This document shows positions 10,575-34,444 of a stretch of 64,000 nucleotides of DNA, one piece after another. The stretch's first letter is position 1. Each line of letters begins with the position of its first letter. The stretch is taken from assembly GCF_022968795.1 (NCBI RefSeq), contig NZ_JALJRB010000023.1:1-64000 (forward strand), written 5' to 3'. The notes below the pieces were generated by a model. It was not told the DNA's origin and searched no databases. It saw nothing but the letters and a program-made list of their open reading frames with translations. Source of the DNA: Desulfatitalea alkaliphila (lineage in GTDB: Bacteria; Desulfobacterota; Desulfobacteria; Desulfobacterales; Desulfosarcinaceae). The translations under genes and the position numbers were made by a program.

Positions 10575-10577
<3 letters not shown>
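10542..10577. repeat. REP-like element next to RAYT gene
   Basis: Read on the minus strand, this is GGGACGTTCATGAAAATATG followed by a short A-rich part and GCGTAC. It aligns closely with the left arm of the palindrome at 33639-33705. It lies 74 bases after the RAYT gene and overlaps the stop codon of the sigma-54 activator gene. Confidence 0.6.
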
Positions 10578-11937
<1,360 letters not shown>

Positions 11938-11966
<29 letters not shown>

Positions 11967-13485
11967 GATGTTCCCTTTCATTGAGGCCATTGGCAGCCAC
12001 CGGCAGGACGATGGTGAAGACGGCCCCCCGGCCGGGGGCACTCTCCACCCGGATATCGCCGCCGTGGTTCTTGATGATGCCGTAGCTGACCGAAAGTCCC
12101 AGGCCGGTGCCCTCACCGGTGGGCTTGGTGGTGAAGAAGGGATCGAAGATGCGGTTGAGCAGATCGGCCGCGATGCCCGGCCCGGTGTCCCGGACCCGGA
12201 TGCACACCTTGCGTCCGCCGTCCGCCTGCTCGGTCTCGATAGTGATCTCCCCTTCCTTGCCCACGGCGTGCCGGGCGTTCATCAGCAAATTGATGAACAC
12301 CTGCCGGATTTTCTTTTCATCCAGCCGCAGCGGCCCCACCTCGCGCTCATAAACGGTGCGCAAACGGATGCCGTCCATGCGTGCGTGCTGCTGCATGAAG
12401 TGTAGCACATCATCGATCAAGTCGTGAATATCGCACAGCTCTCGCTTGGGGGCCGACGTGCGGGCAAAATTGAGCAAGTCTTCCACGATGGATTTGCAGT
12501 GGCGCACTTGCTTTTCGATGGTTTTTAAATCGGCGGCGCGATCCGAGTCGCCGGGTTCGTTGCGCAGCATCAATTGCGTGTAACCCAGGATGATGCCCAG
12601 GGGGTTGTTGATCTCGTGGGCGATGCCGGAGGACAGTTCGCCGATGGAGGCCAGCTTGTCGGCCTGGGCCATCTGCTCGCGCACCATGTACTGCTGTTCG
12701 ATGTCCTTGACCAGAAAATGGAGGGTTTCCTCCCCCTCCGCTACTTCCCGGACCGCCCCGCCGCTGAGCAGCGCCCGCCGCACCGGCCCGCCGCCGGCAT
12801 GCAACCCCACCTCGATGCTGGAGACAAAACCCTTCACATCGATGCTGTCGGCGATTTGCCGCCATTCGGCCGCATCGGCAATATAATCTTGCAGCGAACG
12901 ACCCTCGATGCCCGTGGCAGACGGTGCCAGGCCGAGCATTTGATAGCCGGCCGGGTTGAGATCCAACAAGCGGCCCTGCCTGTCGGTGACGGCGATCATA
13001 TCCTTGCTGGCTTCGAAGATGCGTCGATATTTGTGTTCGGACAAGTCCAGGGCCCGCGTTCGCTCCCCTACCCGCCGTTCCAGCTCCTGGTTCAGGCGCA
13101 GCATCTCCTGGTGCGCGGTCGCCAGGGCCTGGCGATCCCGGATGATGTCCTGGTAAATGGTCCAGGTCCGTTCGAAAAAGAGGGTGGCCGCACCCACCAT
13201 CATGAAGGTCAGGGTGTTGATGGCGCCGCTGAAGGGGCGGATGGGCGACCACCATTGCGCATGGCCGCTGATGATGAGCAACTGTTTGACGATGTGCCCC
13301 AGGGAGCGGGATACGGCGAACAGGGCCAGGGTGACGCTGACCCACATCATGAAGGCCCAAACAATGTTCTGTGGATCCCGCCGCCGCAACCGAAGGGCGA
13401 TATGCACGCAGAGAAAGGAGAAGACGATCATCAACAGCGCCCCTCCCACATCCACGATCCAAATGGGCAGAAAGGTGACCGTCAT
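11938..13485 (-). CDS. Membrane PAS sensor histidine kinase
   Basis: A 515-aa sensor. Start at 13485 overlaps the upstream stop as ATGA. The N-terminal region has about three hydrophobic segments (residues 6-28, 42-65, 85-108), then a coiled coil (110-155, QELERRVGERTRALDLSEHKYRR). A PAS domain (about 155-265, IFEASKDMIAVTDRQGRLLDLNP) follows. HisKA contains His290 in SGIAHEINNPLG. HATPase has N, G1 and G2 boxes (LLMNARHAV, DTGPGIA, GEGTGLGLS). The response regulator gene follows with overlap. The sensed signal is unknown; a cytoplasmic PAS could bind haem, flavin or a small ligand. Confidence 0.93.
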
Positions 13486-14006
13486 GCCCCCGTCTCCGCT
13501 TGCCGCCTCTGATCGGCGTCCCGCAGCAGGCGGCGCAGGCCGAGGTAAAGGCAGACCAGGGCCGGCACGCATAGCAGGTGGTCCAGTTTGACCAGGTAAA
13601 AGACCACACCCAGCCAACCGTAGCCCTCGCTGGTGGTGATCCGGATGTGCATGGGGCCGACCCGTTCGGTCACCAGCAGACCCGAGGCCTCTTCCAGCCA
13701 GTGGCCGAAGAAGGCATTCAGATTCCAGGCGATGAAAAAGAGCGCGCCGTACTGTATGAAGCGCCAGCCCTGTTCGGTAACCAGTCGCCGCTTGCGCAGC
13801 CAGTAGATCAACAGACCCATGGAAAAGCCGAAGAACAGGTGGGCCATCTGGTGGGCATGCAGCCCCTCGGGGCCGCCATGGGATTGAATGGCCCACGCCG
13901 GTGCGGGCCAACCCCACAGCAGGCCCCACAGCAGAACCGCTGCCGGGATAGCGAGGTGCCGGCCCACGACGGTGCGCCGTCTCGTTTGAACGGGATCGGC
14001 ATACAT
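13482..14006 (-). CDS. Unknown multi-pass membrane protein of the kinase operon
   Basis: A 174-aa protein of unrecognised family. ATG at 14006 follows ACAGGAGGACCGCC. It starts with a basic segment then a signal-like hydrophobic stretch ending PAPAWA (residues 18-41), an exported loop SHGGPEGLHAHQMAH, and three more hydrophobic segments (55-75, 85-105, 130-155). The His-rich patch HAHQMAH followed by FFGFSMG could ligate a metal or haem. Four-base coupling to the histidine kinase implies a joint role, for example as an accessory sensor. Confidence 0.65.
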   Translation of the reverse strand: MYADPVQTRRRTVVGRHLAIPAAVLLWGLLWGWPAPAWAIQSHGGPEGLHAHQMAHLFFGFSMGLLIYWLRKRRLVTEQGWRFIQYGALFFIAWNLNAFFGHWLEEASGLLVTERVGPMHIRITTSEGYGWLGVVFYLVKLDHLLCVPALVCLYLGLRRLLRDADQRRQAETGA

Positions 14007-14566: not shown

Positions 14567-14582
14567 TGGTATGGAAATTGCT
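14567..14582 (+). promoter_or_regulatory. Candidate sigma-54 promoter for the Mo-enzyme operon
   Basis: TGGTATG-GAAA-TTGCT matches the sigma-54 pattern TGGCACG-N4-TTGCW at all but two bases. GG (14568-14569) and GC (14580-14581) are spaced exactly 10 bases apart. Transcription would begin near 14593, about 146 bases before the GTG at 14739. A sigma-54 activator gene lies in the divergent operon. Confidence 0.5.
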
Positions 14583-14738: not shown

Positions 14739-16844
14739 GTGAGCCAAACTTACTATTCCTTATGTTTCATGTGTTCCGTACGCTGCCCCATCCAGGTGGA
14801 AGTGGCCAATGGCCGCGTGCAGTGGGTCCAGGGCAATCCCCACGTGGCCGGCATCGAAGGCAGCCTCTGCCCCAAGGGCGCGGCGGGCACCGCCTTACTC
14901 TATGATCACCAACGACTGCACACCCCCTTGATTCGCGATGGCGAAAGGGGTTCCGGGCAGTGGCGCCAAGCTTCGTGGGAAGAGGCGCTGGACTATGTGG
15001 CCGACAAACTCAAGAAGGTGATCGACACCCACGGCGGCCGCAGCGTGGCCCTCATCGAGCGCACGAACCTTTCCACTCATGTGAGCAAGACTTTCCTCAA
15101 AGCCATCGGCTCACCCAACCACCACACCCATGACGCGCTGTGCAAAGGATCGGTCAATACCGCCTGCCGCAGCCTCTTCGGCTACACCGACGCTCAGATG
15201 GGCATGCAGTACGACAAGGCCAAACACGTCGTGCTCTACGGCCGCAATATGTTCGAGGCGGTGGCGGTCAAGGAGGTCAGAAACTTGATGACCGCCCTGT
15301 CCAACGGGGCCCAGTTGACCTACATCGACCCACGGGTCACGATCACCGCCACCAAGGCGACCCGGCACTGGATGATCCGGCCGGGGACCGATCTGGCCCT
15401 CAACTACGCCCTGATGCATGTGATCCTCAATGAACGGCTCTACGACGAAGCTTTCGTGGATCGCTGGGTCAGCGGGTTGTCCCATCTCAAGGAGTTCGTC
15501 CGGCCCTATACGCCGGAGTGGGCCGAAGGGGAAACCGGCATCGCCGCAGAGCGGATCGTCAAACTGGCGCGGCAAATCAGCCGGGACAAGCCGTCGGTCA
15601 TATTTCATTTCGGCTACCGCGGCGCCCATCATGCCAATGAAACCTATCTGCGCCGGTCCATTCTGATCCTCAATGTGCTGATGGGAGCGATCGAGGCGCC
15701 CGGCGGCCTCTTTTTCAAAAAGGGCCCCGGCGAAACGGGCGGCAAAGCGGCACGCAAGCTGACGGAGCAGGAGCTGCCCAAGGTCGATGCGCCCAGGGCG
15801 GACGGCGTGGGCGGCAAGCAACTGCCGCTGCCCGATGCCGCCCACGGTGTTCCCCAGACGTTGATCGACGCCATCCAGACCGGTGAACCCTATCCGATCA
15901 AGGCGCTGATCATCAATCGCTTCGACGCGCTCAAATCGATTCCCGACACCAACAAGACCAAAAAGGCCTTCGAGAATTTGGATCTGTTGGTGGCCATCGA
16001 TGTCAATTTCAGCGACACCGCCTGGTACGCCGACGTGGTGCTGCCGGAGTCCACCTATTTCGAACGCACCGACTGCATCCAGCAGGCCAACGGGCTCAAG
16101 CCCCAGATGTTCCTGCGTCGCCAGGTCATCCCGCCCCTGCACGAAACCCGCGAAAGCGCCATGATGCTCAAACAATTGGCCGAGCGCCTGGGGATTGAAA
16201 AGTACTTTCCCTACAACACCATGGAGGAGCTGGTGGCCTGGCAACTGGAAGGCACCGGATTCACCATGGCCGACTTCGAGGCCAAGGGGTTCGTGGCCTA
16301 CGCCAAGGACGCCATCTTCTGGGACCGCAAGGATGGCATCAAGTTCAAGACCCCCTCGGGCAAGATCGAGCTGCGCTCCGCATTGCTGGAGGATGCCGGC
16401 TTCCCCTCTTTTCCGCCCTACGTGCCGGTGCCGAAAGCAGAGCAGGATCGCTTCCGACTGGTAGTGGGCCGGGTGGCCTTTCACACCCACATCTCCACCC
16501 AGAACAACCCCTACTTGAACGAGCTATACCCCGAAAACAACTTGTGGATCCACTCTTCCCGCGCCAAAGCCCTGGGCATCGCCGACGGTCAGATGGTGGA
16601 GGTGACCAGCAGTCGCGGCAGCGGCACGCTCAAGGCCTATGTCAGCGACATGATTCACCCGGAAGCGGTCTTCATGGTGCACGGTTTCGGCCATGAAGCC
16701 CGGGAGGCCCAACGCTGTTATGCCAAAGGGGTTTCCGACAGCGTTCTGCAAGAGAGCATCACCGACATGGTGGGCGGCAGCCCTGCACTGCACGACACCT
16801 TTGTGACCGTCAAGGCCGCTGAAACGGAACCGGCCGCCGCCTGA
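14739..16844 (+). CDS. Cytoplasmic molybdopterin (bis-MGD) oxidoreductase, catalytic subunit
   Basis: A 701-aa member of the DMSO reductase superfamily. GTG start at 14739 follows GGAGGAC. Cys9, Cys12, Cys16 and Cys44 (CFMCSVRC...LCPKG) bind a 4Fe-4S cluster. Cys135 in HDALCKGSVN is at the usual molybdenum-ligand position. The C-terminal molydop-binding domain (about 570-690) includes HTHISTQNNPYLNELYP. There is no Tat signal, so it should stay in the cytoplasm, unlike most PsrA/PhsA relatives. Genes for a four-cluster ferredoxin and a GltD-like flavoprotein follow at once, suggesting a soluble complex linking substrate oxidation to NAD(P)H. Substrate unknown; no internal TGA suggests Sec. 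Confidence 0.88.
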   Translation: MSQTYYSLCFMCSVRCPIQVEVANGRVQWVQGNPHVAGIEGSLCPKGAAGTALLYDHQRLHTPLIRDGERGSGQWRQASWEEALDYVADKLKKVIDTHGGRSVALIERTNLSTHVSKTFLKAIGSPNHHTHDALCKGSVNTACRSLFGYTDAQMGMQYDKAKHVVLYGRNMFEAVAVKEVRNLMTALSNGAQLTYIDPRVTITATKATRHWMIRPGTDLALNYALMHVILNERLYDEAFVDRWVSGLSHLKEFVRPYTPEWAEGETGIAAERIVKLARQISRDKPSVIFHFGYRGAHHANETYLRRSILILNVLMGAIEAPGGLFFKKGPGETGGKAARKLTEQELPKVDAPRADGVGGKQLPLPDAAHGVPQTLIDAIQTGEPYPIKALIINRFDALKSIPDTNKTKKAFENLDLLVAIDVNFSDTAWYADVVLPESTYFERTDCIQQANGLKPQMFLRRQVIPPLHETRESAMMLKQLAERLGIEKYFPYNTMEELVAWQLEGTGFTMADFEAKGFVAYAKDAIFWDRKDGIKFKTPSGKIELRSALLEDAGFPSFPPYVPVPKAEQDRFRLVVGRVAFHTHISTQNNPYLNELYPENNLWIHSSRAKALGIADGQMVEVTSSRGSGTLKAYVSDMIHPEAVFMVHGFGHEAREAQRCYAKGVSDSVLQESITDMVGGSPALHDTFVTVKAAETEPAAA

Positions 16845-16916
16845 CCCGATATCACCGGTCGGTGAATCCATTTTCGGCAGACGCGGCTTGCCGCGTGTTA
16901 TGAGAAGGAGAACCAC

Positions 16917-17432
16917 ATGAGTGATTTTTATCTGTTTCAAGATACCCGCAAGTGCATTGGCTGTCATGCCTGCGAAGTCCAGTGCAAAGCCAACAAGGGA
17001 TTGCCGCCGGGTCCCAAGCCGAGCCAGATCGTGCCCGTGGGGCCCAAAATGGTGGGGGAACACCCTCGGGCCTCTTTCGTGTTCATGCACTGCTTTCACT
17101 GTGAAAAACCGTGGTGCGTGGATGCCTGCCCCACCGGCGCCATGCAAAAGCGGGAAAAGGACGGCATCGTATTCGTGGAGGCCGACCTGTGTGTCGGCTG
17201 CAAGGCATGCATCTCCGCCTGCCCCTGGGGCGCGCCCCAATGGCATCGCGAATCGCGCAAGGTGGTCAAGTGCGATTTCTGCATGGACCGTGTCGATCAG
17301 GGTTTGCAGCCCGCATGTGTCACCGTCTGCATCACCCACTGCCTGAGCTTCGGCGAAAGCAACGCGATGACCCAAGTGCGTCGCCAACGCCATGCCCGGT
17401 CGGTGGCCGCCTTGGACGACAATGCCTTTTAG
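16917..17432 (+). CDS. Four-cluster 4Fe-4S electron-transfer subunit (DmsB/HycB type)
   Basis: A 171-aa ferredoxin-like subunit. ATG at 16917 follows GAGAAGGAGAACCAC. Four cysteine groups are visible: CIGCHACEVQCK near the N-terminus, CFHCEKPWCVDACP around 60, CVGCKACISACP around 95, and CDFCMDRV...CVTVC from about 120. This is the usual set for the electron-transfer subunit paired with a bis-MGD enzyme. It lies 72 bases after the catalytic subunit and 9 bases before the flavoprotein gene, and there is no membrane anchor gene. It would carry electrons between the molybdenum site and the flavoprotein. Confidence 0.92.
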   Translation: MSDFYLFQDTRKCIGCHACEVQCKANKGLPPGPKPSQIVPVGPKMVGEHPRASFVFMHCFHCEKPWCVDACPTGAMQKREKDGIVFVEADLCVGCKACISACPWGAPQWHRESRKVVKCDFCMDRVDQGLQPACVTVCITHCLSFGESNAMTQVRRQRHARSVAALDDNAF

Positions 17433-17441
17433 GATCCGAGA

Positions 17442-19598
17442 ATGAAAAAAACGCCCCCTCCCCATTGTCCCGTCGACGATGCCCTCTCGCGGCTGCAATC
17501 AGCCGCCGAGGGCAACGCGCTGCAGCATCCCCGCAGCCGACGGCTTGTGGGACAACTGGCGACCCTGGTGCGCGATGTGGCCTGGGGCCGCGCGGAAATG
17601 GATCACCTGTCGGCCCTGGACCGTCTGGCCGCGGAACTGGCCGGCTTCAATGCCGACCCTCACGGGGCCGAATTGGGTGCCGCACTGCAGGCAGCCCTGG
17701 ACCAACACCGGGAAGTTTTCGAAAGTCATGTGCAGACGGAAAACTGCGCCGCCGAAGTGTGCGACCGCCTGGCCCCGGCCCCTTGCCAGATGGCTTGCCC
17801 GGCCGGTATCGACGTGCCCACCTATGTGGCGCTGATCGGCGAGGGACGGGACGCCGAGGCCATCGAAGTGATCCGGCGCGACAACCCCTTCCCCTGGGTA
17901 TGCGGCCTGGTCTGCACCCGGCCTTGTGAATTCATGTGCGTGCGCGGCCGCATCGACACCCCGGTGAGCATCAAGTTTCTCAAGGCCTTCGCCGCGGAGC
18001 GCGCCTTGTCCAAGGGGGAGTATGTCAACCCCCCCGCCGCCGCGTCCAAGAACCGCAAGGTGTGCGTGGTGGGCGCCGGGCCGGGCGGCATGACCGCCGC
18101 CTACTATCTGGCCCTCAAGGGCTACACGGTGCGGGTCTTGGAAGCTTTGCCCATGGCCGGCGGCATGATGATGGTGGGCATTCCCCGTTACCGCCTGCCG
18201 CGGGAGGTGATCGACCGCGAAGTGGCGATGATCGAAGATCTGGGCGTGACCTTTCACTTCAACACCCGCTTCGGCCGGGACGTCACCCTGGCGCAACTCC
18301 AGGCCGAGGGCTTCGAAGCCTTTTTCCTGGCCATCGGGGCCCATGACTCCTTCCGCCTGGGCATCGAGGGTGAAGGCGACTACCCCCAGGTGCTGCAATC
18401 CATCGAATTTCTCAAGCGGGTGGCCCTGGGCGACCGACATATGCCCGGCAAACGCGTGGTGGTGATCGGCGGCGGCAACGTGGCCATCGATGCCGCCCGC
18501 ACCTGCCTGCGCCTGGGATGCAGCGACGTCACCCTGGCCTACCGGCGCACCCGGGACGAAATGCCGGCCGATATCGAGGAGATCGAACAGGCGGAAGAAG
18601 AGGATGTGCGCTTCAACTTCCTGACCGTGCCGGTGGCCGTCGAAGGCCATGACGGCCGGGTCACCGGTTTGCGCTGTCTGCAGGCCGAACTGGTGTCCAA
18701 GCCGGGTTCCGACCGCATGTTCCCGGTACCCATCGACGGCAGTGAATTCGTCATACCGGCCGATGCGATCATCAGTGCCATCGGCCAGCGGGTGGCGCAG
18801 GGGAGCCTGACTGAAATCAAGTCCCTGGGATGGACCCGCCGCGACACCATCCATGTGAACACCGCCACCATGGCCACCGACGTGCCCGGCATCTTCGCTG
18901 CCGGCGACGCCGTCACCGGACCCGCCACGGTGGTGGAGGCCATCGGCGGCGGCAAACGGGCGGCCCAGGCCATCGATCGCTTTCTCAACGACATCCCCCA
19001 ACCCAACATGCCGCCGGTGCCCGTGCGACGGCAGCGGGTGGCCTGGACCGAAGTGCCCGCCGCCACCAAGATGGCCCTCAAGCGGCCCCACATGCCGCTG
19101 CTCAACATGGACCGGCGCCGCACCACCTTCCAGCAGGTGGAGTTGGGCTACACCGAGAACATGGTGCGCGAGGAGGCCCGCCGCTGCCTGCGCTGCGACA
19201 TCTGCCGCCGCTGCGGGCGTTGCGTGCAGGTGTGCCGCGACAAGATGGGGGTGGATGCCCTTCAGTTGGGCTACCTGGACTTCGATCACCCCGGCCCCAC
19301 CGACTTCCGCCTCACCCAGGAGCGTTGCATCGCCTGCGGCGCCTGCGCCGAAAACTGTCCCAACGACGCCATGCTGATCGAAGAGCGCAAGGGCGAACGG
19401 GTGCTGCACCTGTGCGGCACCATCCTCAGTCGGCAACCCTTGCTCTTCTGCGACGGTTGCGGCGCCTCCATGGGCACGGCCCGCTATCGCGACTACATCC
19501 GCAGCCGCACCAAAGCCGTGGCGCCGACCATCGGCCGGCGCATGCTGTGCGATGCATGCGCCCGCAAACAGTCCTCCATGGACCGTAATATAGAATAA
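17442..19598 (+). CDS. GltD-like FAD/NAD(P) Fe-S oxidoreductase
   Basis: A 718-aa soluble flavoprotein. After a helical N-terminal region (1-95) comes a GltD-type Fe-S domain (about 100-190; CQMACPAGIDVPTYVALI, CGLVCTRPCEFMC). A first Rossmann fold binds FAD (VCVVGAGPGGMTAAYYLA, near 206) and a second binds NAD(P)H (VVVIGGGNVAIDAARTC, near 343). A C-terminal extension holds two ferredoxin clusters (CLRCDICRRCGRCVQVC; CIACGACAENCP) and a last four-Cys knot (FCDGCG...CDACARKQ). It resembles NfnB/GltD-type subunits with added clusters. Gene order implies that it passes electrons between NAD(P)H and the preceding ferredoxin and Mo enzyme. Electron bifurcation is conceivable but not shown. Confidence 0.88.
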   Translation: MKKTPPPHCPVDDALSRLQSAAEGNALQHPRSRRLVGQLATLVRDVAWGRAEMDHLSALDRLAAELAGFNADPHGAELGAALQAALDQHREVFESHVQTENCAAEVCDRLAPAPCQMACPAGIDVPTYVALIGEGRDAEAIEVIRRDNPFPWVCGLVCTRPCEFMCVRGRIDTPVSIKFLKAFAAERALSKGEYVNPPAAASKNRKVCVVGAGPGGMTAAYYLALKGYTVRVLEALPMAGGMMMVGIPRYRLPREVIDREVAMIEDLGVTFHFNTRFGRDVTLAQLQAEGFEAFFLAIGAHDSFRLGIEGEGDYPQVLQSIEFLKRVALGDRHMPGKRVVVIGGGNVAIDAARTCLRLGCSDVTLAYRRTRDEMPADIEEIEQAEEEDVRFNFLTVPVAVEGHDGRVTGLRCLQAELVSKPGSDRMFPVPIDGSEFVIPADAIISAIGQRVAQGSLTEIKSLGWTRRDTIHVNTATMATDVPGIFAAGDAVTGPATVVEAIGGGKRAAQAIDRFLNDIPQPNMPPVPVRRQRVAWTEVPAATKMALKRPHMPLLNMDRRRTTFQQVELGYTENMVREEARRCLRCDICRRCGRCVQVCRDKMGVDALQLGYLDFDHPGPTDFRLTQERCIACGACAENCPNDAMLIEERKGERVLHLCGTILSRQPLLFCDGCGASMGTARYRDYIRSRTKAVAPTIGRRMLCDACARKQSSMDRNIE

Positions 19599-19612
19599 GG
19601 GGGAGGGTTCCC

Positions 19613-19822
19613 ATGGTTTTCCGCAGAGGTCAGAAAATCGAAGTGTTCCAGCGCAGCAGCGACGACATGTGGGAAGATTACATGGACCGCTTCATCGGAC
19701 GGCACGGCATCATCACCGATCCGGACACCTCCATCAACGATCCGGACGCCCTGGTGGAGGTGAGCCTGGAAGGCATGGGCACCCACCGCCTGCCCCAGGA
19801 TTGCCTGCGCCTGCTCGATTGA
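19613..19822 (+). CDS. Small conserved-type hypothetical protein of the Mo operon
   Basis: A 69-aa protein, family not recognised. ATG at 19613 follows AAGGGGGAGGGTTCCC, a strong ribosome site, and it lies 14 bases after the flavoprotein gene, so it is probably the last gene of the operon. It is acidic and Cys-free (MVFRRGQKIEVFQRSSDDMW), with alternating beta-like segments and no membrane helix. An assembly or regulatory subunit is a guess from position only. Confidence 0.65.
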   Translation: MVFRRGQKIEVFQRSSDDMWEDYMDRFIGRHGIITDPDTSINDPDALVEVSLEGMGTHRLPQDCLRLLD

Positions 19823-19905
19823 CGCTGCACGCTCCGGCGCATCGCTGAAACCGCCACATCCTACGCCAACCCACTGCCGGCCCTCGCCGACGGCCGTCCG
19901 CCATA

Positions 19906-19931
19906 CGCCGGCGGTCGGTTGACCGCCGGCG
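19906..19931. terminator. GC-rich hairpin after the Mo operon
   Basis: A perfect 11-bp stem, CGCCGGCGGTC (19906-19916) with GACCGCCGGCG (19921-19931), closed by GGTT. No T run follows, so termination would be inefficient or Rho-assisted. It lies 84 bases after the last gene. Confidence 0.45.
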
Positions 19932-20041
19932 CATAGCGGGCGATGCCGCGCCGTCTCCTCTCTTCGTCCCCATCCCGCTTCCGCCGGACCCGTCGCTTAC
20001 ATCCAAAGTGTACCTCGATATCTTTTGAACACCATTCTTTA

Positions 20042-20073
20042 GTTCGTCTATTCCGAACACTATTTCGTATAAT
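20042..20073 (+). promoter_or_regulatory. Possible promoter and operator before iorA
   Basis: TATAAT at 20068-20073 is a perfect -10 hexamer. Just upstream GTTCG (20042-20046) and CGAAC (20054-20058) form an inverted repeat over the expected -35 area, which may be a repressor site. The -35 hexamer itself is poor. Confidence 0.35.
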
Positions 20074-20125
20074 GGAAACTTAAGCCGCTTTTCTGTTGTC
20101 AGCGAACGGCCTTCGTGCTAGAAAT

Positions 20126-22084
20126 ATGCTTATGACGACAACATCCCAAGCATGGCATCTGGATGCGCCCGGCCGTCGCTGCATGATGTCGGGCAACGAA
20201 GCGGCCGCCCGCGGCGCCGTCGAGGCGGGGGTACAGGTGGTGGCCTCCTATCCCGGCTCACCTTCGGTGCAGGTGCTGGAGTGCCTGGCGGCCGTGGCCC
20301 GCGAACGGGAGATCTACGCCGAGTGGTCCATCAATGAAAAGGTGGCCCTGGAGGTGGCGGCGGCCGGATCCCTGGCAGGGTTGCGCGCCCTTGCGGTGAT
20401 GAAGGCCGACGGCCTGAACGTGGCGCTGGACTTTCTCACCACCTTGCCCCTTTCCGGCATCCGCGGCGGACTGGTGTTGATCGTTTCGGACGACCCCGGG
20501 GCCCACTCCAGCGTCAAGGAGGAGGACACCCGCTACCTGGCGGTGCCGGCCCACATACCGCTGTTGGAACCGACCACTCCGGCGGATACGCGGGACATGA
20601 TCGCGTGGGCCTTCGAACTGTCGGAAAAGTGCGCCCTGCCGGTGATGGTGCGGCTGGTGACCCGCATCTGTCACGCCCGCGGCAATGTGACCCTGCAACC
20701 GATCCACGCGGGCAGTCAAACGCCCCGCTTCGATCCCGATCCGGGCTACATCACCGCCGCCCGCTTCCACGGCCGGGCCCACGAACGACTTGACAACCTG
20801 CTGCCGTTATATGCCGCCGCCCCCTTCAACCCCTACACCGGCCCGGCCGATCCCGAACTGACCATCGTGGCCGGCGGCGTCAGCCACTGTTACGCCTTGG
20901 AAGCGGTGGAGCGCCTGGCCGCCGGCGACCGCGTGGGCATCTTGCGGGTGGGCACCCTTTGGCCCTTTCCCGAGGCGCCGGTGCTGGCGGTGTTGCGCCG
21001 TTCCCGGCGGGTGCTGTTTCTGGAAGAGATCGAACCGTTCATCGAAGAGCAGACCAAGCTAGTGGCCGCCGAACACGCCGCCGAGCTGGGTCCCCTTGAA
21101 TTTCTGGGCCGCCGCACCGGCCAGGTGCCTTGGGTGCAGAAGGCCCGGGGCATGGGGGAGATGGATCCCGACATCGCCACCCGGGCGTTGGCCGCGGCCC
21201 TGGACATCCCCTTCGAACAAGGGGCCACGCGATCGGCCGAAGCGCAGGCCGCTCTGGACGATCTGCCCATGCCGCTGCGCCAGCCCAGTTTCTGCGCCGG
21301 ATGTCCCCACCGGGCGGCCTATTGGGCCATCAAGAGCGCCCTGGCCATGGACGGCCGCCAGGGATTCGCCCTGGGCGACATCGGCTGCTACGCTTTGGGC
21401 GTGATGCCCACCGGCTACCAGGCCATCCGCACCGTGCACAGCATGGGATCGGGGGTCGGCTTGGCCGCCGGGTTCGGCAAGCTGCGCGCCATGGGCCTCG
21501 ATCAACCGGTGGTGGCGGTGATCGGCGACTCCACCTTCTATCATAGCGGCATCCCGCCGCTGCTCAACGCCAAAACCACCGGCGCCGACTACCTGTGCAT
21601 CGTGCTGGACAACGGCACCACGGCCATGACCGGCCATCAGCCCCATCCGGGATGCGGCGTGGATGCCCTGGGCGACCCCACCAGCGCCATGCCCATTGCC
21701 GACCTGGTGCGCAAACTGGAGATCCCCCTGACCGTGGGCGATCCCTACGACGTGCACGGCACGGTGGCCGCCATTCTGGAACTGCTGCAACGCGGCGGGC
21801 TGCAGGTGCTCCTGCTGCAGCAGCCCTGCGCCTTGCAAGCGCTCAAGGGAGACAAACGCCGAAAGGTGACCGTCGATCCCGAACGCTGCCGGGGCGACGC
21901 CTGCGGCTGCGGGCGGTTGTGCAGCCGGGTCTTCGCCTGTCCGGCCAACACCTGGGACTCCGCCGCCGGACGTGCCGTCATCGACGAGGTGGTGTGCGCC
22001 GGCTGCGGTGTCTGCGCCGCGCTCTGCCCCGAGGGCGCCATCCTGGTCGAACCCCCGCAAGGAGACGCCCATGCTGCCCCATGA
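20126..22084 (+). CDS. iorA: Indolepyruvate:ferredoxin oxidoreductase alpha subunit
   Basis: A 652-aa thiamine-diphosphate enzyme subunit that decarboxylates aryl-pyruvates to aryl-acetyl-CoA, reducing ferredoxin. ATG at 20126 is taken; 20132 is equally possible and the ribosome site is weak. N-terminal pyrimidine-binding domain (MSGNEAAARGAVEAGVQ, YPGSPS, KADGLNVALDFL), central transketolase-C-like domain, then the TPP domain (FCAGCPHRAAYW; GDIGCYALG; GDSTFYHSGI...LDNGTTAMTGHQPHPG). The C-terminal ferredoxin domain has one normal cluster (CAGCGVCAALCP) and one unusual motif (CRGDACGCGRLCSRVFACP). It overlaps iorB by 14 bases. Aromatic amino acid breakdown is the usual role. Confidence 0.93.
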   Translation: MLMTTTSQAWHLDAPGRRCMMSGNEAAARGAVEAGVQVVASYPGSPSVQVLECLAAVAREREIYAEWSINEKVALEVAAAGSLAGLRALAVMKADGLNVALDFLTTLPLSGIRGGLVLIVSDDPGAHSSVKEEDTRYLAVPAHIPLLEPTTPADTRDMIAWAFELSEKCALPVMVRLVTRICHARGNVTLQPIHAGSQTPRFDPDPGYITAARFHGRAHERLDNLLPLYAAAPFNPYTGPADPELTIVAGGVSHCYALEAVERLAAGDRVGILRVGTLWPFPEAPVLAVLRRSRRVLFLEEIEPFIEEQTKLVAAEHAAELGPLEFLGRRTGQVPWVQKARGMGEMDPDIATRALAAALDIPFEQGATRSAEAQAALDDLPMPLRQPSFCAGCPHRAAYWAIKSALAMDGRQGFALGDIGCYALGVMPTGYQAIRTVHSMGSGVGLAAGFGKLRAMGLDQPVVAVIGDSTFYHSGIPPLLNAKTTGADYLCIVLDNGTTAMTGHQPHPGCGVDALGDPTSAMPIADLVRKLEIPLTVGDPYDVHGTVAAILELLQRGGLQVLLLQQPCALQALKGDKRRKVTVDPERCRGDACGCGRLCSRVFACPANTWDSAAGRAVIDEVVCAGCGVCAALCPEGAILVEPPQGDAHAAP

Positions 22085-22682
22085 TCCCCTCAACATCATC
22101 ATCTCGGGCGTGGGCGGGCAGGGCAACATCCTGGCCTCGGACCTGCTCTCGCGCACCTTCTGCGAACAGGGATGGCACATCAGCGTGGGCGAGACCTACG
22201 GCGCCACCCAGCGGGGCGGATCGGTGGTCAGCCACCTGCGGCTTTCCCGCCGACACGCCTACGGTCCGTTGATTCCTTTGGGCGAAGCCCACATCCTCAT
22301 CGGCTTCGAACCGCTGGAGGTGTTGCGCATCCTGCGCGAGTACGGCCATGCCGATGTGCGGGTGGTGATGAACGATCGCCCCCTGCCCCCCCTGGAGGCG
22401 CTGCAGGGACAAAGCGCCTATCCTTCCCTGGACGCGCTAAAGGCGGCCATCGGCGGTATGAGCCGACAATTGGTGGTGGTGCCCGGCACCCGATTGGCCC
22501 AGGAGGCCGGCAATGCCCAGGCCCAAAACGTGGTGATGGTGGGCGCCTTTGCCGGCTTGGGGTGGATTCCGCTGGAAAAAGGCGCCTACCTGCAGCCCAT
22601 CGAAGGCCTGTTCAGCGGCACCAAGCTGGCCGTCAACCGAAAAGCCTTCGAGCTGGGATATCAAGCCGGTCAGAGGCAATAA
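22071..22682 (+). CDS. iorB: Indolepyruvate:ferredoxin oxidoreductase beta subunit
   Basis: A 203-aa partner of IorA, equivalent to the gamma domain of 2-oxoacid:ferredoxin oxidoreductases. ATG at 22071 follows AAGGAGACGCCC, inside the end of iorA. The N-terminal ISGVGGQGNILASDLLSR is the family signature, followed by GETYGATQRGGSVVSHLR. Length matches the usual 190-210 aa. Translational coupling implies a 1:1 complex. Confidence 0.95.
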   Translation: MLPHDPLNIIISGVGGQGNILASDLLSRTFCEQGWHISVGETYGATQRGGSVVSHLRLSRRHAYGPLIPLGEAHILIGFEPLEVLRILREYGHADVRVVMNDRPLPPLEALQGQSAYPSLDALKAAIGGMSRQLVVVPGTRLAQEAGNAQAQNVVMVGAFAGLGWIPLEKGAYLQPIEGLFSGTKLAVNRKAFELGYQAGQRQ

Positions 22683-22745
22683 AGGCGGCCGCCATGGCGG
22701 CGGTCCGTCTCTCTTGAACGGCCGACATCCCTGAGGAGTTGCGGC

Positions 22746-24080
22746 ATGGCCGAAATCACAGCGGCGGCACGCAAGCCGCTTTTCTACTACGGGTGGGTCA
22801 TCGTGGCCCTGGGATTCGTCACCCTGGGCACCGCTTTCGGGGTGTGGTACTCTTTCTCGGTCTTCATCCTGGCCATCATCAATGAATTCCAGTGGAGCCG
22901 GGCGGCCGCATCGAGCATCTTCTCCACCTTCATCTTCGCCCAGGCGCTGATGAATCCCGTCACCGGATACCTGCAAGACCGTTTTGGACCCCGGGTGATC
23001 ATCCCGGTGGGTACATTGGTGGTGGCCCTGGCCCTGTTCCTGACCAGCCACGCCCAGAGCCTGTGGCATTTCAACCTGGCCTACGGGGTGTTGGCGGGCG
23101 CCGGTATCAGCCTGATGGGCTTCGCCTCCCACGCAGCCTTCATCCCCAAGTGGTTCGAACGCAAACGGGGTCTGGCCCTGGGCATCACCATGGCCGGCAT
23201 CGGTTTCGGTATGCTTTTCCTGATTCCGCTGGTGGAGCGCTGGATCAGCAGCTTCGGCTGGCGCACCACCTACCTCTACCTGGCCCTGATGGTCCTGGTG
23301 GCCCTGGGGCCCCTCAACCTGCTGCTCTCCCGCCGCAGCCCCCAGGATCTCAACCTGCTGCCCGACGGCGACAGCGATCCGGACGCCCCGGACAACGGTC
23401 GCCCCGCCCCCACCATGCGCCTGACCGTGGTGGACCCCCAATGGGCCGCCCGCTCCTGGACCCTGGGCGCCGCCCTGGGCACCCAGCGCTTCTGGTTGCT
23501 GTTCCTGGCCTTCTTCTGCATGGCTTTCTCCTACCAGGGCATCTTGTTGCATGCCGTGTCGGCTATGGTGGACCAAGGGCTGACCCGTGAAACCGCCGCC
23601 TACTTCTTCGGCATCCTGGGCATCGCCGGATCGGGCGGCAAGATTCTGTTCGGCTACCTGTCCGACCTGTTCGGCCGGGAACGGACCGTCACCCTGGCCG
23701 GCGGCATCGCCTGCATCGGCATCCTCTGTTTGATGTTCGCCGGCAATGCCCCCAGCCTGCTGCCGCTGCTGTTCGCCCTGCTCTTCGGCCTGGGCTATGG
23801 CGCCGCCGCCCCCTTGCTGCCGTCCATGTGCGCCGACATTTTCCTGAGCAAAGCTTTCGGCCTGATCTTCGCCACCATCGCCATCGGCGGCGGCATGGGC
23901 GGGGCGACGGGCGCCTACATGGCGGGATTGCTGCGCGACGTGAGCAACACCTACACCACCCCCATGGTGGTCTTCATCGCCCTGCTGCTGCTCTCCTGCG
24001 TCCTGATCCGGCTGGCGGCGCCCGGCCAGGTGCGGCGCATGGTGCGCCTGAAACCGCAACACGAGAAGGAAGCCCCATGA
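22746..24080 (+). CDS. MFS transporter, monocarboxylate/oxalate-formate antiporter type
   Basis: A 444-aa inner-membrane carrier. ATG at 22746 follows GAGGAGTTGCGGC. Twelve hydrophobic segments are divided by a long central loop (about 205-240). The N-terminal FYYGWVIVALGFVTLGTAFGVWYSFSV and the motif GYLQDRFGPR match the MCT/OFA-like branch of the major facilitator family, which moves monocarboxylates. Cysteines are few and there is no added domain. It sits between iorAB and a DUF1847 gene, the latter overlapping its stop as ATGA. Uptake of the aryl- or alkyl-carboxylate that feeds the neighbouring enzymes is inferred. Confidence 0.88.
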   Translation: MAEITAAARKPLFYYGWVIVALGFVTLGTAFGVWYSFSVFILAIINEFQWSRAAASSIFSTFIFAQALMNPVTGYLQDRFGPRVIIPVGTLVVALALFLTSHAQSLWHFNLAYGVLAGAGISLMGFASHAAFIPKWFERKRGLALGITMAGIGFGMLFLIPLVERWISSFGWRTTYLYLALMVLVALGPLNLLLSRRSPQDLNLLPDGDSDPDAPDNGRPAPTMRLTVVDPQWAARSWTLGAALGTQRFWLLFLAFFCMAFSYQGILLHAVSAMVDQGLTRETAAYFFGILGIAGSGGKILFGYLSDLFGRERTVTLAGGIACIGILCLMFAGNAPSLLPLLFALLFGLGYGAAAPLLPSMCADIFLSKAFGLIFATIAIGGGMGGATGAYMAGLLRDVSNTYTTPMVVFIALLLLSCVLIRLAAPGQVRRMVRLKPQHEKEAP

Positions 24081-24787
24081 ACGACAACGCCACCAACCCA
24101 ATTGCTCCCGAAGATGCACTCGCGGCCTGTGCGGCCTGCAAGCTGCCCATCGCCAAACGCATCTGCTTCAACCCGCGGGGCACCGGTCCCAAGGGATGTC
24201 CCACCATCAACGCGGCGGCCGTGCTGGCGCAAGCCAATCAACACTACCGCGACCCGGCGGTCGGGGAGTTCGCCCGCCAGGCGTCGCGGCAGGAGGCCGA
24301 AGGGTATGCCAACCGCCACGAGCGGCCCTACATCATGCAGCCGGCCAAAACCCGCATCGTCGAGATTTGTGAATTCGCCCGCAAAATGGATTATCAACGC
24401 CTGGGTCTGGCTTTCTGTATGGGCCTGATGCGGGAGGCGGCAATGGTGGGCGACATCCTGACGGCCCAGGGCTTTGAAGTGGTTTCGGTGGGTTGCAAGG
24501 CCGGCCGCACGCCCAAAGAGACCATCGGTATCACCGACGACGAAAAGGTGTTCCAGGACAAACCCGAAGCCATGTGCAACCCCATTTTCCAGGCCCGCCT
24601 GCTCAACGACCAGGCAAGCCACTTCAACATCCTGCTGGGCCTGTGCGTGGGTCACGACGCCCTCTTCTTCCAGTACGCCACCGCCCCCACCACCGTCCTG
24701 GCCGTCAAGGACCGGGTCACCGGCCACAATCCGCTGGCGGCGGTCTACTGCTCGAACTCTTATTACCGGCGGCTGAAGCAACCCTGA
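24077..24787 (+). CDS. DUF1847-type cysteine-rich metal-binding protein
   Basis: A 236-aa cytoplasmic protein whose ATG overlaps the MFS stop. The N-terminal CAACKLPIAKRIC plus CP further on (residues 14-45) and later cysteines (FCMGLMRE, GCKAGRTPK, MCNP, LGLCVGHD, YCSNSYYRRL) fit DUF1847, a family found in anaerobes and thought to bind a metal or Fe-S cluster. Catalytic function is not established. Its place between a carboxylate carrier and a tungsten aldehyde oxidoreductase suggests a redox or metal-delivery role. No membrane segment or signal peptide. Confidence 0.75.
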   Translation: MNDNATNPIAPEDALAACAACKLPIAKRICFNPRGTGPKGCPTINAAAVLAQANQHYRDPAVGEFARQASRQEAEGYANRHERPYIMQPAKTRIVEICEFARKMDYQRLGLAFCMGLMREAAMVGDILTAQGFEVVSVGCKAGRTPKETIGITDDEKVFQDKPEAMCNPIFQARLLNDQASHFNILLGLCVGHDALFFQYATAPTTVLAVKDRVTGHNPLAAVYCSNSYYRRLKQP

Positions 24788-24914
24788 TCAGGAAGCATTG
24801 GTTGGAAGCAGGATCTATGTTATGAATTGAATACGGTTTCTGAACCGTCGTACCGGCAATCGCCGAAAAGGTTCGAATCCTTTCCCCAATAAAACCAAAC
24901 CGCAAGGAGGCCGT

Positions 24915-26636
24915 ATGCAATTGATCCGCGTCAATATGACGGACCAATCCATTCACGTCGAAGATATGCCATCCGCCTACGAAGGCCTGGGCGGCCGGGG
25001 ACTCACCTCGGTGATGATCGACGCCGAGGTGCCGCCCCGATGCGATCCCCTGGGGCCGGAAAACAAACTGATCCTGGCGCCGGGGCTGCTCAGCGGCACG
25101 CCGCTGGTCAACACCGGACGCATCTCCATCGGCGCCAAGAGCCCTTTGACCGGCGGCATCAAGGAGAGCAATTCGGGGGGCAAAATCGCCACCAGCCTGG
25201 CCAAACTGGGCATCGCCGCCGTGGTGGTGGAGGGGCAGGCACCGGCCGGCGCCTTGTGGCGGCTGGTGATCGACGACCAGGGCAAAGCCGCCTTGCAGCA
25301 AGCGTCGGATGACAAGGGAGCGCGCACCTATGCTTTGTGCGCGAAACTGCTCGAGCAATTCGGCCCCAAATACACCATCGCCTGCATCGGACCGGCGGGC
25401 GAGCTGCAATTGGGATCGGCCTCCATCCAAACCACCGATGTGGACGACCGCCCCTGCCGGGCGGCCGCACGGGGCGGCCTGGGGGCCGTGATGGGCGCCA
25501 AGGGGCTCAAGGCGGTGGTGGTTGCCACCCAGGGCAAGGCGTCGGACACCATCGCCGACCCGGAGGGCTTCAAGGAGGCGGCCAAGGCCATTGCCCAGGG
25601 TTTGCAGAAGAACCCCTTCACCGGGCAGGTGCTGCCCAACCTGGGCACCGCCGGCATCCTGGGCGGGGTCAACGCCATGGGGGCTTTTCCCAGCTACAAC
25701 GCCACCAAGGGGGTGTTCGACGGCTGGGAGAAGATCAGCGGTGAAGCCCTGGCCGAGCGGCTGCAGCAGCGGGGCGGCAAGACCAAGCACATGGGCTGTT
25801 CCCAGTGCATCATCCACTGCTCCAACGAATACGTGGACGACAAGGGCAAATATGTGACCTCGTCCCTGGAGTACGAGACCCTCTGGTCCATGGGCGGCAT
25901 GATCGGCGTCGACGATCTGGACGCCATCGCGCGCCTCGATTTTTTGTGCGACGACATCGGGCTGGACACCATGAACACCGGCGTGGCCCTGGCCGTGGCC
26001 ATGGATGCGGGCCACAAACCCTTCGGCGACGGCGCCGCCGCCATCGCCATGGTCGAAGAGGTGGCCCGGGGCACCGACTTCGGCAGGATCCTGGGCAGCG
26101 GCCCCGTGGCCGTGGGCAAGCACTTCAACCACCACCGGGTGCCGGCGGTCAAGGGCCAGGGCATCGCCGCCTACGATCCACGGGCCATGCAGGGGCTGGG
26201 GGTCACCTACGCCACCTCCACCATGGGGGCCGACCACACGGCGGGCAACCTGCTGGGCCTTTACATGGCCGGAGCCCTCGATCCCCTGGCAGCCGAAGGA
26301 CAGGCCGACGCCTCGCGGGGGGCCCAGGTCACCATGGCGGCCCTGGACTGCATCGGCCTGTGCATCTTGGCCGGCGGCGCGGTGGCCTCGTCCAAGGGAC
26401 GGGAGGCCATGCTGCGCCTGCTGGGCGCCAAATTCGGCCGGGAGATGGCCCCCGACGCCCTCACCGAGATGGGCGTGCGCATCCTGAAGGCCGAGAAGAA
26501 TTTCAACACCCGGGCCGGGCTCAGCGCCACGGACGACCGGCTGCCGCGGTTTTTCCACGAAGAGCCGCTGCCGCCGCACAACAAGACCTTTCTGGTGAGC
26601 GACGACGACCTGGACAAGGTGTACAATTTCCAATGA
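24915..26636 (+). CDS. aor: Tungsten-containing aldehyde:ferredoxin oxidoreductase
   Basis: A 573-aa cytoplasmic enzyme that oxidises aldehydes to carboxylates with ferredoxin, or the reverse. ATG at 24915 follows AAGGAGGCCGT. The N-terminal domain carries GLGGRGLTS and TGRISIGAKSPLTGGIKESNSGG, the tungstopterin-binding signature. The 4Fe-4S ligands are Cys295, Cys298 and Cys302 (CSQCIIHC), plus Cys479 or Cys483 (DCIGLC). Length is shorter than the roughly 605-aa archaeal AOR and similar to bacterial short forms. A MoaD-like carrier gene overlaps the stop. Together with IorAB, this supports disposal of aldehydes released from 2-oxo acids. Confidence 0.93.
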   Translation: MQLIRVNMTDQSIHVEDMPSAYEGLGGRGLTSVMIDAEVPPRCDPLGPENKLILAPGLLSGTPLVNTGRISIGAKSPLTGGIKESNSGGKIATSLAKLGIAAVVVEGQAPAGALWRLVIDDQGKAALQQASDDKGARTYALCAKLLEQFGPKYTIACIGPAGELQLGSASIQTTDVDDRPCRAAARGGLGAVMGAKGLKAVVVATQGKASDTIADPEGFKEAAKAIAQGLQKNPFTGQVLPNLGTAGILGGVNAMGAFPSYNATKGVFDGWEKISGEALAERLQQRGGKTKHMGCSQCIIHCSNEYVDDKGKYVTSSLEYETLWSMGGMIGVDDLDAIARLDFLCDDIGLDTMNTGVALAVAMDAGHKPFGDGAAAIAMVEEVARGTDFGRILGSGPVAVGKHFNHHRVPAVKGQGIAAYDPRAMQGLGVTYATSTMGADHTAGNLLGLYMAGALDPLAAEGQADASRGAQVTMAALDCIGLCILAGGAVASSKGREAMLRLLGAKFGREMAPDALTEMGVRILKAEKNFNTRAGLSATDDRLPRFFHEEPLPPHNKTFLVSDDDLDKVYNFQ

Positions 26637-26875
26637 TCCGCGTGACGGTTCAACTCCACGGCACCCTGCCCCGGCGGGTGCCGGCTTACGACCCCGAACG
26701 GGGCCTGACGATCTCCCTGGCGCCGGGGGCCACCGTTGCCGACCTGCTGGACGCCCTGGGTCTCACGGCCGAGGATACCGGCGTGGTGGCCCTGGACGGC
26801 CGTGTGGCCCAACCCGCGGATGCCCTGTCCGACGGCGCCCGGGTGCGCATTTTTCAGGTGGCCCACGGCGGCTGA
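26633..26875 (+). CDS. MoaD/ThiS-like sulfur-carrier protein linked to AOR
   Basis: An 80-aa ubiquitin-fold protein beginning in the AOR stop (ATGA). The sequence GATVADLLDALGL (around 32-44) and the last residues AHGG are the MoaD/ThiS pattern. The C-terminal Gly-Gly is adenylated and thiocarboxylated to donate sulfur during pterin cofactor synthesis. Coupling to aor suggests a dedicated carrier for tungstopterin; a general MoaD role is also possible. No matching moaE or moeB in the window. Confidence 0.85.
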   Translation: MIRVTVQLHGTLPRRVPAYDPERGLTISLAPGATVADLLDALGLTAEDTGVVALDGRVAQPADALSDGARVRIFQVAHGG

Positions 26876-26921
26876 GCAGACGTGCGCCGGGGCCGAACCC
26901 TCAAAACAAAGGTGCTTTGCC

Positions 26922-28079
26922 ATGATCGATTTTTCTCTGACCGCCGAACAGCAACGCTATGTGGATCTGGCACGGGAATTTTCCACCAAGGAGATCGCCC
27001 CGGTGGCCCTGGCCTATGACGCCGCGCCGGTCTATCCGGAAGCGATCCTCAAAAAGGCCCGCGAACTGGGCCTGCTGTACACCAACATCCCCGAGGCCTA
27101 CGGGGGATCGGGGATGGATTTCGTCACCCACTACCTGGTCACCGAGGCACTCAACTACGACTGCTGCGCCATCGGCCAGATGATCGGCATCGCTCACCTG
27201 GCCACCGGCCCGGTTCTCATCGGCGGCAGCGAAGCGCAGAAACAGCGCTTCCTGCAGCCCATGACCGCCGGCCACCGCAGTGCCTGCTTCTGTCTGACCG
27301 AACCGGGGGCCGGCTCGGACGCCGCCGCCATGCAGACCCGCATCGAGAAACGGGGCGACAAATACCTGCTCAACGGCGCCAAGTGCTACATCACCAACGG
27401 CCGCGACGCCGACCTGCTGGTGGTGTTCGCCACCATCGATCCATCCAAAGGCACCAAGGGCATCTGCTGCCTGGCCGTGCCGCGCACCACCCCCGGCATC
27501 CGGGTGGGGCGGGTGGAGGACAAGATGGGCCACCGGGCGCTGGTGGTCAGCGAGCTGTTCTTCGACGACGTGGAGCTGACCCGCGACCATCTCATCGGCG
27601 CCGAAGGACAGGGGTTCAAGCTGGCCATGATGGCCCTGGACCGCGGCCGGGCCAACATCGCCGCCGTCTGTACCGCCATCGCCCAACGGGCCCTGGACGA
27701 AGCCAAACGGTGGGCCAACGAGCGGGTGCAGTTCGGCCAACCCGTGGGCCAGTTCCAGGGGGTGCATTTTCTGCTGGCCGATATGTACCAGGCGGTGATG
27801 GCCGCCCGCGCCCTCTACCTGCAGGTGGGCTGGATGCTGGACCAGGGCCGCCCCTGCATCACCGAAGCCGCGGCGGCCAAGTGTTTCGCCTCGGACGCCG
27901 CCATGCGGGTGACCACCGATGCGGTGCAGATCCTGGGCGGCTCCGGCTACATGAAGGGCGCGGTGGTGGAAAAACTGATGCGCGACGCCAAGCTGACCCA
28001 GATCTTCGAAGGAACCAACCAGATCAACCGCATCGTCTGCGGCCGCGGGGTGCTAACGGGCAAAAACCGGCTTTTCTGA
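26922..28079 (+). CDS. Acyl-CoA dehydrogenase
   Basis: A 385-aa FAD enzyme that introduces an alpha-beta double bond into acyl-CoA. ATG at 26922 lies after AAAGGTGCTTTGCC. All domains are present: N-terminal helical domain, the beta domain with CFCLTEPGAGSDAAAM (FAD/substrate contact), and the C-terminal helical domain with catalytic Glu363 in IFEGTNQINR. Length is standard for short- and medium-chain types. It ends the region, 6 bases from a convergent VWA gene. It would act on the acyl-CoA products of the IorAB/AOR route, but chain specificity is open. Confidence 0.92.
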   Translation: MIDFSLTAEQQRYVDLAREFSTKEIAPVALAYDAAPVYPEAILKKARELGLLYTNIPEAYGGSGMDFVTHYLVTEALNYDCCAIGQMIGIAHLATGPVLIGGSEAQKQRFLQPMTAGHRSACFCLTEPGAGSDAAAMQTRIEKRGDKYLLNGAKCYITNGRDADLLVVFATIDPSKGTKGICCLAVPRTTPGIRVGRVEDKMGHRALVVSELFFDDVELTRDHLIGAEGQGFKLAMMALDRGRANIAAVCTAIAQRALDEAKRWANERVQFGQPVGQFQGVHFLLADMYQAVMAARALYLQVGWMLDQGRPCITEAAAAKCFASDAAMRVTTDAVQILGGSGYMKGAVVEKLMRDAKLTQIFEGTNQINRIVCGRGVLTGKNRLF

Positions 28080-28085
28080 TACGGA

Positions 28086-29273
<1,188 letters not shown>

Positions 29274-29281
29274 GGTGCTTC

Positions 29282-29337
29282 CGATCTGTCGGATCTTTCG
29301 GCGAATCTTTCGGCGGATCTTTCGGCGGATCTGTCGG
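29282..29337. repeat. 12-base tandem repeat before VWA gene
   Basis: About four imperfect copies of a 12-base unit (GGCGGATCTTTC) lie directly upstream of the VWA start, between it and the AAA gene. Being a multiple of three, it reads as a repeated Lys-Ile-Arg-Arg stretch in the VWA frame. Too short and without spacers, so not a CRISPR. It may be a slippage-prone leader. Confidence 0.7.
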
Positions 29338-29416
29338 GCGGCTCCATCGGGTCGATGCAATTTCCCGAGCCTTCCCGCGGCGGTTGTCAGTACCTTGCGA
29401 AACCGTCACCGAACGC

Positions 29417-30259: not shown

Positions 30260-30336
30260 GGTGATTGTCCTCTGTTGGGTCTTGTTGCCTCGTTGATTGA
30301 AAAACCAGGGCATGACGGTTGCTATCGCCTGAGGGT

Positions 30337-33604: not shown

Positions 33605-33612
33605 TTGGGGAA

Positions 33613-33739
33613 GGGGACGGCAGATAGGGGACGAGATAGGGGACGTACATGAATATATGAATTTTTTTTGGGGTTCAAAAAATTCATATATTCATGTACG
33701 TCCCCGGTTATATATGTACGTCCCCGGTTATACGTCCCC
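33613..33739. repeat. Large GGGGACG-ended palindrome cluster between selD and yedF
   Basis: A perfect inverted repeat has 29-bp arms (33639-33667 and 33677-33705) and a 9-base loop. Two extra GGGGACG copies stand on the left (33613, 33627) and two CGTCCCC copies on the right (33719, 33733), making a symmetric array. The arm sequence resembles the REP-like element beside the RAYT gene (10542-10577). The A/T run at the apex could also end transcription. Confidence 0.85.
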
Positions 33740-33753
33740 GGATAAGGATGCTT

Positions 33754-34365: not shown

Positions 34366-34372
34366 AACCCGG

Positions 34373-34444
34373 AGGGGACGCCCTTAACTTTTTAACTTAC
34401 TGCCTGAAGTTCGGCAGTAAGTTAAAAAGTTAAGGGCGTCCCCT
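34373..34444. repeat. Perfect 32-bp palindrome after yedF
   Basis: Arms 34373-34404 and 34413-34444 are exact inverses around the loop TGAAGTTC. The ends are AGGGGACG/CGTCCCCT, as in the cluster before yedF, but the stem body (CCCTTAACTTTTTAACTTAC) differs. It lies between convergent genes and supplies the stop codon of the gene on the minus strand (34430-34432). It may serve as a bidirectional terminator. Confidence 0.9.

Follow-up and report, generated by a model that had tools for sequence, protein, structure and literature searches.

A co-directional redox region of Desulfatitalea alkaliphila is likely made of two transcription units, a molybdoenzyme complex and a 2-oxoacid/aldehyde set

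Aldehyde:ferredoxin oxidoreductases (AORs) of the Pyrococcus type clear keto-acid-derived aldehydes, the Aromatoleum operon AorABCDE combines an AOR with a MoaD-like protein, and formate dehydrogenases carry a His after their ligand Cys or Sec. Genes related to such systems follow one another at positions 14739-28079 of a contig of the sulfate-reducing bacterium Desulfatitalea alkaliphila, of which bases 1-64000 were analysed (hereafter the window; the source genome comprises 5.07 Mb in 98 contigs). This region of eleven plus-strand genes is likely to represent two independent transcription units that are neighbours in a Desulfatitalea-like lineage: a molybdenum (Mo) complex (unit A, 14739-19822) and a 2-oxoacid/aldehyde set (unit B, 20183-28079).

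Unit A starts with a cytoplasmic, PsrA/PhsA-like Mo subunit of the bis-molybdopterin guanine dinucleotide (bis-MGD) type (701 aa, 14739..16844), in which the Pfam domains Molybdopterin, Molydop_binding and Molybdop_Fe4S4 each score above cut-off, with additional NCBIfam and PDB matches. It is followed by a DmsB/NrfC-like four-cluster ferredoxin subunit with 17 Cys (16917..17432), a GltD-like flavoprotein with additional 4Fe-4S domains (17442..19598), and a conserved 69-aa protein predicted to form an SH3-like barrel (19613..19822). Like PsrABC/PhsABC (Thermus, PDB 2vpw), unit A has a Cys in the ligand position and a four-cluster Fe-S partner. Unlike these complexes, it has neither an export signal (the first cluster Cys of the Mo subunit is residue 9, which leaves no room for one) nor a membrane-anchor gene, the other three genes of the block encoding the ferredoxin, an NAD(P)-type flavoprotein and the 69-aa protein.

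Unit B comprises IorA, the alpha subunit of an indolepyruvate-type 2-oxoacid:ferredoxin oxidoreductase (20183..22084), the gamma-type subunit IorB (22071..22682), a monocarboxylate-type carrier of the major facilitator superfamily (MFS, 22746..24080), a DUF1847 protein with 10 Cys (24077..24787), a predicted tungsten-type AOR (24915..26636), a MoaD/ThiS sulfur carrier ending in Gly-Gly (26633..26875) and an acyl-CoA dehydrogenase (ACAD, 26922..28079). The alternative ACAD start at 26736 (longest open reading frame, TTG) is probably wrong, since a gene beginning there would overlap MoaD and since the match to the family sets in only near residue 64 of the longer frame. DUF1847, ThiS, AFOR_N and AFOR_C score above cut-off in their respective proteins, as do TPP_enzyme_C and POR (the latter on IorB) in the Ior proteins, which have a thiamine pyrophosphate domain and a separate gamma-type subunit; IOR_alpha is by far the best model for IorA, at 527 bits against a cut-off of 650.9. 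The AOR carries CxxCxxxC and a distal Cys, aligned with the cluster cysteines of solved AORs, the ACAD has N-terminal, middle and C-terminal domains with a catalytic Glu motif, and the carrier reaches 214.5 bits with the L-lactate/monocarboxylate model SfMCT (cut-off 320). As with the Pyrococcus-type enzyme and 2-oxoacid:ferredoxin oxidoreductases, an AOR with four cluster cysteines adjoins IorAB; the differences lie in the Desulfatitalea-like host and in the presence of MoaD, MFS, DUF1847 and ACAD. AOR and MoaD are shared with the Aromatoleum operon, from which unit B differs in having no ferredoxin or flavoprotein gene of its own, those next to it belonging to the Mo unit. The earlier note on this DNA had listed ten of the eleven genes, with a Mo enzyme, its own four-cluster ferredoxin and a GltD-like flavoprotein ahead of IorAB; Pfam and NCBIfam domain matches and coordinates confirm all ten on the plus strand and in that order, and the overlooked eleventh is the 69-aa gene.

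The run of genes is not uniform: the 69-aa gene and IorA are 360 nt apart, and it is here that the two units meet, all other gaps measuring at most 127 nt. In a second genome of the same genus (G004), two separate contigs carry the Mo unit (C301) and the Ior-AOR unit (C187), and the DNA similarity of the window switches from one to the other around this point, ending at 19818 for C301 and beginning at 20062 for C187 (junction, 19823..20062, no strand assigned). The 2.8 kb that follow the 69-aa gene on C301 hold kinase-like and regulator-like matches and no IorA, and upstream of IorA C187 continues for 265 bp before it breaks off, in sequence that is rich in repeats and dissimilar to the window; the two units are thus not directly adjacent in G004. 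A scan of the junction returned no sigma-70 promoter-like site, and one weak terminator-like site at 20042-20058 (shuffled sequences give 0.4). Both clades share a contig at distant positions in G002 (674,793 and 822,770), G029 and G082, and among the genomes examined the Mo unit stands next to IorAB-AOR in the source genome only.

Each unit has its own pattern of conservation. In a panel of 116 genomes (the source genome and 115 relatives), a Mo homologue of at least 65% identity occurs in 43, on a list made by hand that counts partial genes. None of 20 fetched Mo loci, several of which lie on contigs ending soon after the unit, has a match to IorA, IorB, MFS, DUF1847, AOR, MoaD or ACAD, and none of the 42 fetched loci of the AOR clade (20 + 7 + 15, some short) has a member of the Mo clade. 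In a second scan, directed at named genomes, the best 80 relatives out of 164 were retained, some of which are also in the panel; its counts take genes anywhere in the locus and include weak kinase and regulator paralogues. Among the named loci, 53 extend 5 kb or more downstream of Mo. They contain the ferredoxin (53), the flavoprotein (51), the 69-aa gene (48), a HoxU-like Fe-S protein (42) and a CBS protein (20), and IorA, IorB, MFS, AOR and DUF1847 in no case; ACAD relatives of 32-34% identity occur upstream of Mo in three (L091, L096, L113). IorA, AOR and DUF1847 are likewise found in none of the 39 named loci that reach 9 kb or more downstream. On the other side, 46 named loci extend 8 kb or more upstream of Mo, and these include a TSUP (TauE/SafE) permease of either of two kinds in 35, a sigma-54 regulator in 33, a kinase in 33 and TM121 in 30. 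The genes of unit A thus reappear as a set in other Desulfobacterota, in most cases with a TSUP permease gene nearby, and for the Mo half these neighbourhoods contradict the joint pathway suggested in the earlier note. Two named loci (L067, L094) contain tandem Mo-ferredoxin pairs, in which the second Mo protein is 70% and 68% identical to that of the window and the first 55% and 49%, respectively.

The Mo unit also has its own promoter motif. A sigma-54-type sequence, TGGTATGGAAATTGCT, precedes the Mo gene on the plus strand (14567..14582), and divergently from the unit, on the minus strand, lie genes for a sigma-54-dependent response regulator (10575..11981), a PAS histidine kinase (11938..13485) and a 121-aa hydrophobic protein accompanying the kinase (13482..13847). 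The 450 nt upstream of Mo were scanned at 21 loci, with at most three mismatches allowed to the sigma-54 consensus, and 15 regions contained a match, 71-172 nt ahead of the Mo start; 14 of these 15 conform to TGGTAYGNNNNTTGCT. Random 450-nt stretches contain such a match in 8.5% of cases. Upstream of IorA there is no sigma-54-type match, be it in the window or in the 265 bp that the G004 contig offers; one lies 366 nt before the TSUP gene of the window (1506..2711, plus strand).

What does unit B do? The order IorAB-MFS-DUF1847-AOR-MoaD-ACAD is retained in G004 with 72-91% protein identity, which makes a local link from 2-oxo acids through aldehydes or acyl-CoA plausible for this half; the earlier note had extended that link to the Mo half, where it does not stand. 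The link is restricted in lineage. Two further genomes, G002 and G007, have MFS-DUF1847-AOR-MoaD without IorAB, their IorAB (73% identity) being on other contigs, and in four other members of the genus (L007, L010-L012) AOR-MoaD occurs without MFS or DUF1847 (a further locus, L013, stops at the AOR). Among the 42 AOR-clade loci, IorA is present at one (G004) and DUF1847 at four. ACAD matches with E ≤1e-130 are found in 2 of the 116 genomes, and with E ≤1e-118 in 11 of 345 genomes of a phylum sample (source genome counted in both); none of five fetched ACAD loci has an AOR, and one genome (G301) has both on different contigs. Given the rarity of IorA, DUF1847 and ACAD, and the relatives in which AOR-MoaD stands alone, unit B appears to have been put together recently and locally around an AOR-MoaD pair of greater age. 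It most likely serves to oxidise 2-oxo acids, with the AOR clearing aldehydes: IorAB would turn 2-oxo acids into acyl-CoA and reduced ferredoxin, the AOR, matured with the help of MoaD, would oxidise the corresponding aldehydes, the resulting acids would be moved by the MFS carrier, and the ACAD would take the CoA ester further. Immediately downstream, at 28086-31407, VWA-like, MoxR-type AAA and hypothetical (hyp356) genes on the minus strand converge on the ACAD gene and are retained in G004 (84-94%).

The alternative that survives best, which we regard as less likely, is that the AOR acts on aldehydes derived from alcohols or amines, IorAB being an unrelated neighbour. In a quick tree of 50 AORs, with neighbourhood labels assigned by hand, the window AOR belongs to a set of 25 (support 94, unstarred), seven of which lie beside a Zn-type alcohol dehydrogenase, as named by eye from sequence, and none of which has an amine label. 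It lies outside a related clade of 15 (support 100), in which ten lie beside amine-related genes. The presence of IorAB on other contigs in G002 and G007 also speaks for this alternative. Against it stand the order IorAB-MFS-DUF1847-AOR, kept in two genomes, and the short or overlapping gaps in the window, and a role in 2-oxoacid metabolism remains the preferred reading of unit B. The seven AORs in question (L184, L185, L186, L191-L194) are accompanied in some cases by branched-chain-type ABC transporters or corrinoid/methyltransferase-like proteins, also named by eye.

The amine-associated clade deserves mention in its own right. Agmatine deiminase (4), GABA-type aminotransferase (5), putrescine-type aminotransferase (4) and Pot-like transporter (4) genes were counted at AOR loci, and mixes of these with saccharopine-dehydrogenase-like proteins surround the related AORs of L015, L017-L020 and L022-L025; the amine label of L190 rests on a 35% aminotransferase match. 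Of the single representatives taken for a scan, those of agmatine deiminase and GABA aminotransferase scored above their cut-offs, and those of putrescine aminotransferase and PotD below. A second, distant AOR lies inside the amine cluster at L017, L018, L019 and L023, and these four loci, together with the amine-gene neighbours, suggest a possible AOR-based route from putrescine to succinate in Desulfosarcina relatives.

As for unit A, Thermus PsrA (PDB 2vpw) is the best solved relative of the Mo subunit (387 bits, nearly full length), and the PhsA model reaches 607.8 bits (cut-off 694). C135 aligns with the ligand-position Cys of PsrA, and C135-K-G-S is invariant in ten of ten aligned homologues. 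The predicted structure of the subunit, built on ten aligned sequences, was too poor to use, with a mean predicted local distance difference test score (pLDDT) of 46. Selenocysteine was considered and rejected for the ten aligned homologues: many homologue matches contain one or two stops, and none is left in the ten aligned sequences, nine of them trimmed at their ends by about ten codons, so that the stops of these ten are ordinary ends. Acetylene hydratase (PDB 2e7z) and cytoplasmic formate dehydrogenase (PDB 7bkb) share the location, similar length, bis-MGD family and Cys/Sec ligand, and are weaker matches (207 and 170 bits). An NAD(P)H-linked formate dehydrogenase or CO2 reductase is improbable: the cytoplasmic location, the FDH-like length, the NAD(P)-type flavoprotein, the HoxU-like 2Fe-2S/4Fe-4S protein added in relatives and a match to the Fdh-alpha model (277 bits) would fit such an enzyme; that score, however, is far under the 666-bit cut-off and well below that of PhsA, and a Lys follows the ligand-position Cys in all ten homologues, where formate dehydrogenases have a His.

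The fourth protein of the unit belongs to a family with 54 distinct homologues besides the window member, in which 18 of 69 columns are invariant across 46 rows of the alignment. It is present in 17 of the 345 genomes of the phylum sample (source genome counted). A Pfam scan of the window protein gave no match. Its model is a small barrel (mean pLDDT 84) that retrieved nothing from the PDB at E 0.001 or better, so that only the fold class is claimed here; weak matches (E 0.01-0.1) comprise KOW/SH3-like folds, PetP, FeoA and the ferredoxin:thioredoxin reductase variable chain.

Its four-cluster ferredoxin, NAD(P)-type flavoprotein and missing membrane anchor make it probable that unit A encodes a PsrA-like enzyme that is soluble, linked to NAD(P)H and directed at a small compound, perhaps one of sulfur. 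Electrons exchanged between NAD(P)H and the flavoprotein would pass through the four-cluster ferredoxin to the PsrA/PhsA-like Mo site, the divergently encoded kinase and regulator would activate the sigma-54-type promoter, and the unit, together with the TSUP permease, would handle a small anion that most likely contains sulfur. Excerpts of one study describe sulfate reducers as rich in TSUP proteins, whose function there could not be predicted (PMC5840216), so the sulfur compound is a substrate that we infer. A more specific proposal, which we advance tentatively and consider doubtful as a whole, is that unit A represents a molybdoenzyme system of sulfate reducers that has so far not been described: soluble, linked to NAD(P)H, controlled by sigma-54, coupled to a TSUP permease and equipped with a family-specific SH3-like small subunit, it would convert a sulfur oxyanion or polysulfide in the cytoplasm as a side branch apart from Dsr, Apr and Psr. 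Searches of open-licence papers on the Mo module, on AORs and on Desulfatitalea listed no title or opening abstract line that describes unit A or unit B.

Several observations weigh against two independent units, or against unit A as a fixed set. Of the 116 genomes, 27 have the AOR clade and 43 the Mo clade; 16 have both, where 10 are expected (Fisher p 0.007, uncorrected for kinship), and distant family members do become neighbours: a 30% Mo-family match lies 6 kb from the AOR of L186, a distant paralogue like the ferredoxin match of L191 (30%) and the flavoprotein matches of L010 and L011 (28%), and a 27% AOR-family match lies upstream of Mo at L099, a locus outside the counted sets. Many assemblies are fragmented, and adjacency is therefore not judgeable in every genome. 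Six of the 21 scanned upstream regions have no sigma-54-type match, and eight of the 21 come from one genus and are thus not independent. The TSUP gene of the window lies 12 kb away from the Mo unit and shares 54% identity with the TSUP gene adjacent to the G004 Mo unit; it may on both counts be a paralogue. The TSUP-ferredoxin-flavoprotein-69-aa module also occurs at L195, where no Mo match is present, and at L202, where the only one is a 44% paralogue downstream, and L203 ends inside the flavoprotein gene, where the presence of Mo is not judgeable; given L195 and L202, and the 69-aa gene adjoining the flavoprotein gene in ten of ten loci fetched from the phylum sample, the electron-transfer part may be the fixed core of the module. 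One 13-kb pathway, adaptive in this strain, in which the Mo complex would serve IorAB, AOR and ACAD by re-oxidising or supplying ferredoxin and NAD(P)H, is nevertheless highly improbable, as the single strand, the mostly short gaps, the excess co-occurrence and the lack of a recognised sigma-70-type promoter at the junction are set against an adjacency confined to the source genome, the 360-nt gap with its contig switch and the separate promoter motif of the Mo unit, on which grounds, with the neighbourhoods of relatives, both a single operon and the single pathway of the earlier note are rejected.

Elsewhere in the window, lactate racemase-like (LarA) and FAD/Fe-S glycolate-lactate dehydrogenase-like genes lie on the minus strand at 4154-8247, and a LarA relative is also found near the Mo unit in G002, G005 and G009. 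At 32654-36583, an AIR-synthase-type gene (SelD-like), a TusA-DsrE fusion and a class V aminotransferase gene (cysteine desulfurase-like) suggest a putative role in selenium or sulfur trafficking.

Taken together, these comparisons correct a tempting pathway call made from gene adjacency, and isolate a conserved enzyme system of Desulfobacterota that comes with a regulatory handle, in the form of its own two-component system and promoter motif. Should its substrate turn out to be a sulfur compound, unit A would extend what sulfate reducers can do with sulfur by a route linked to NAD(P)H.

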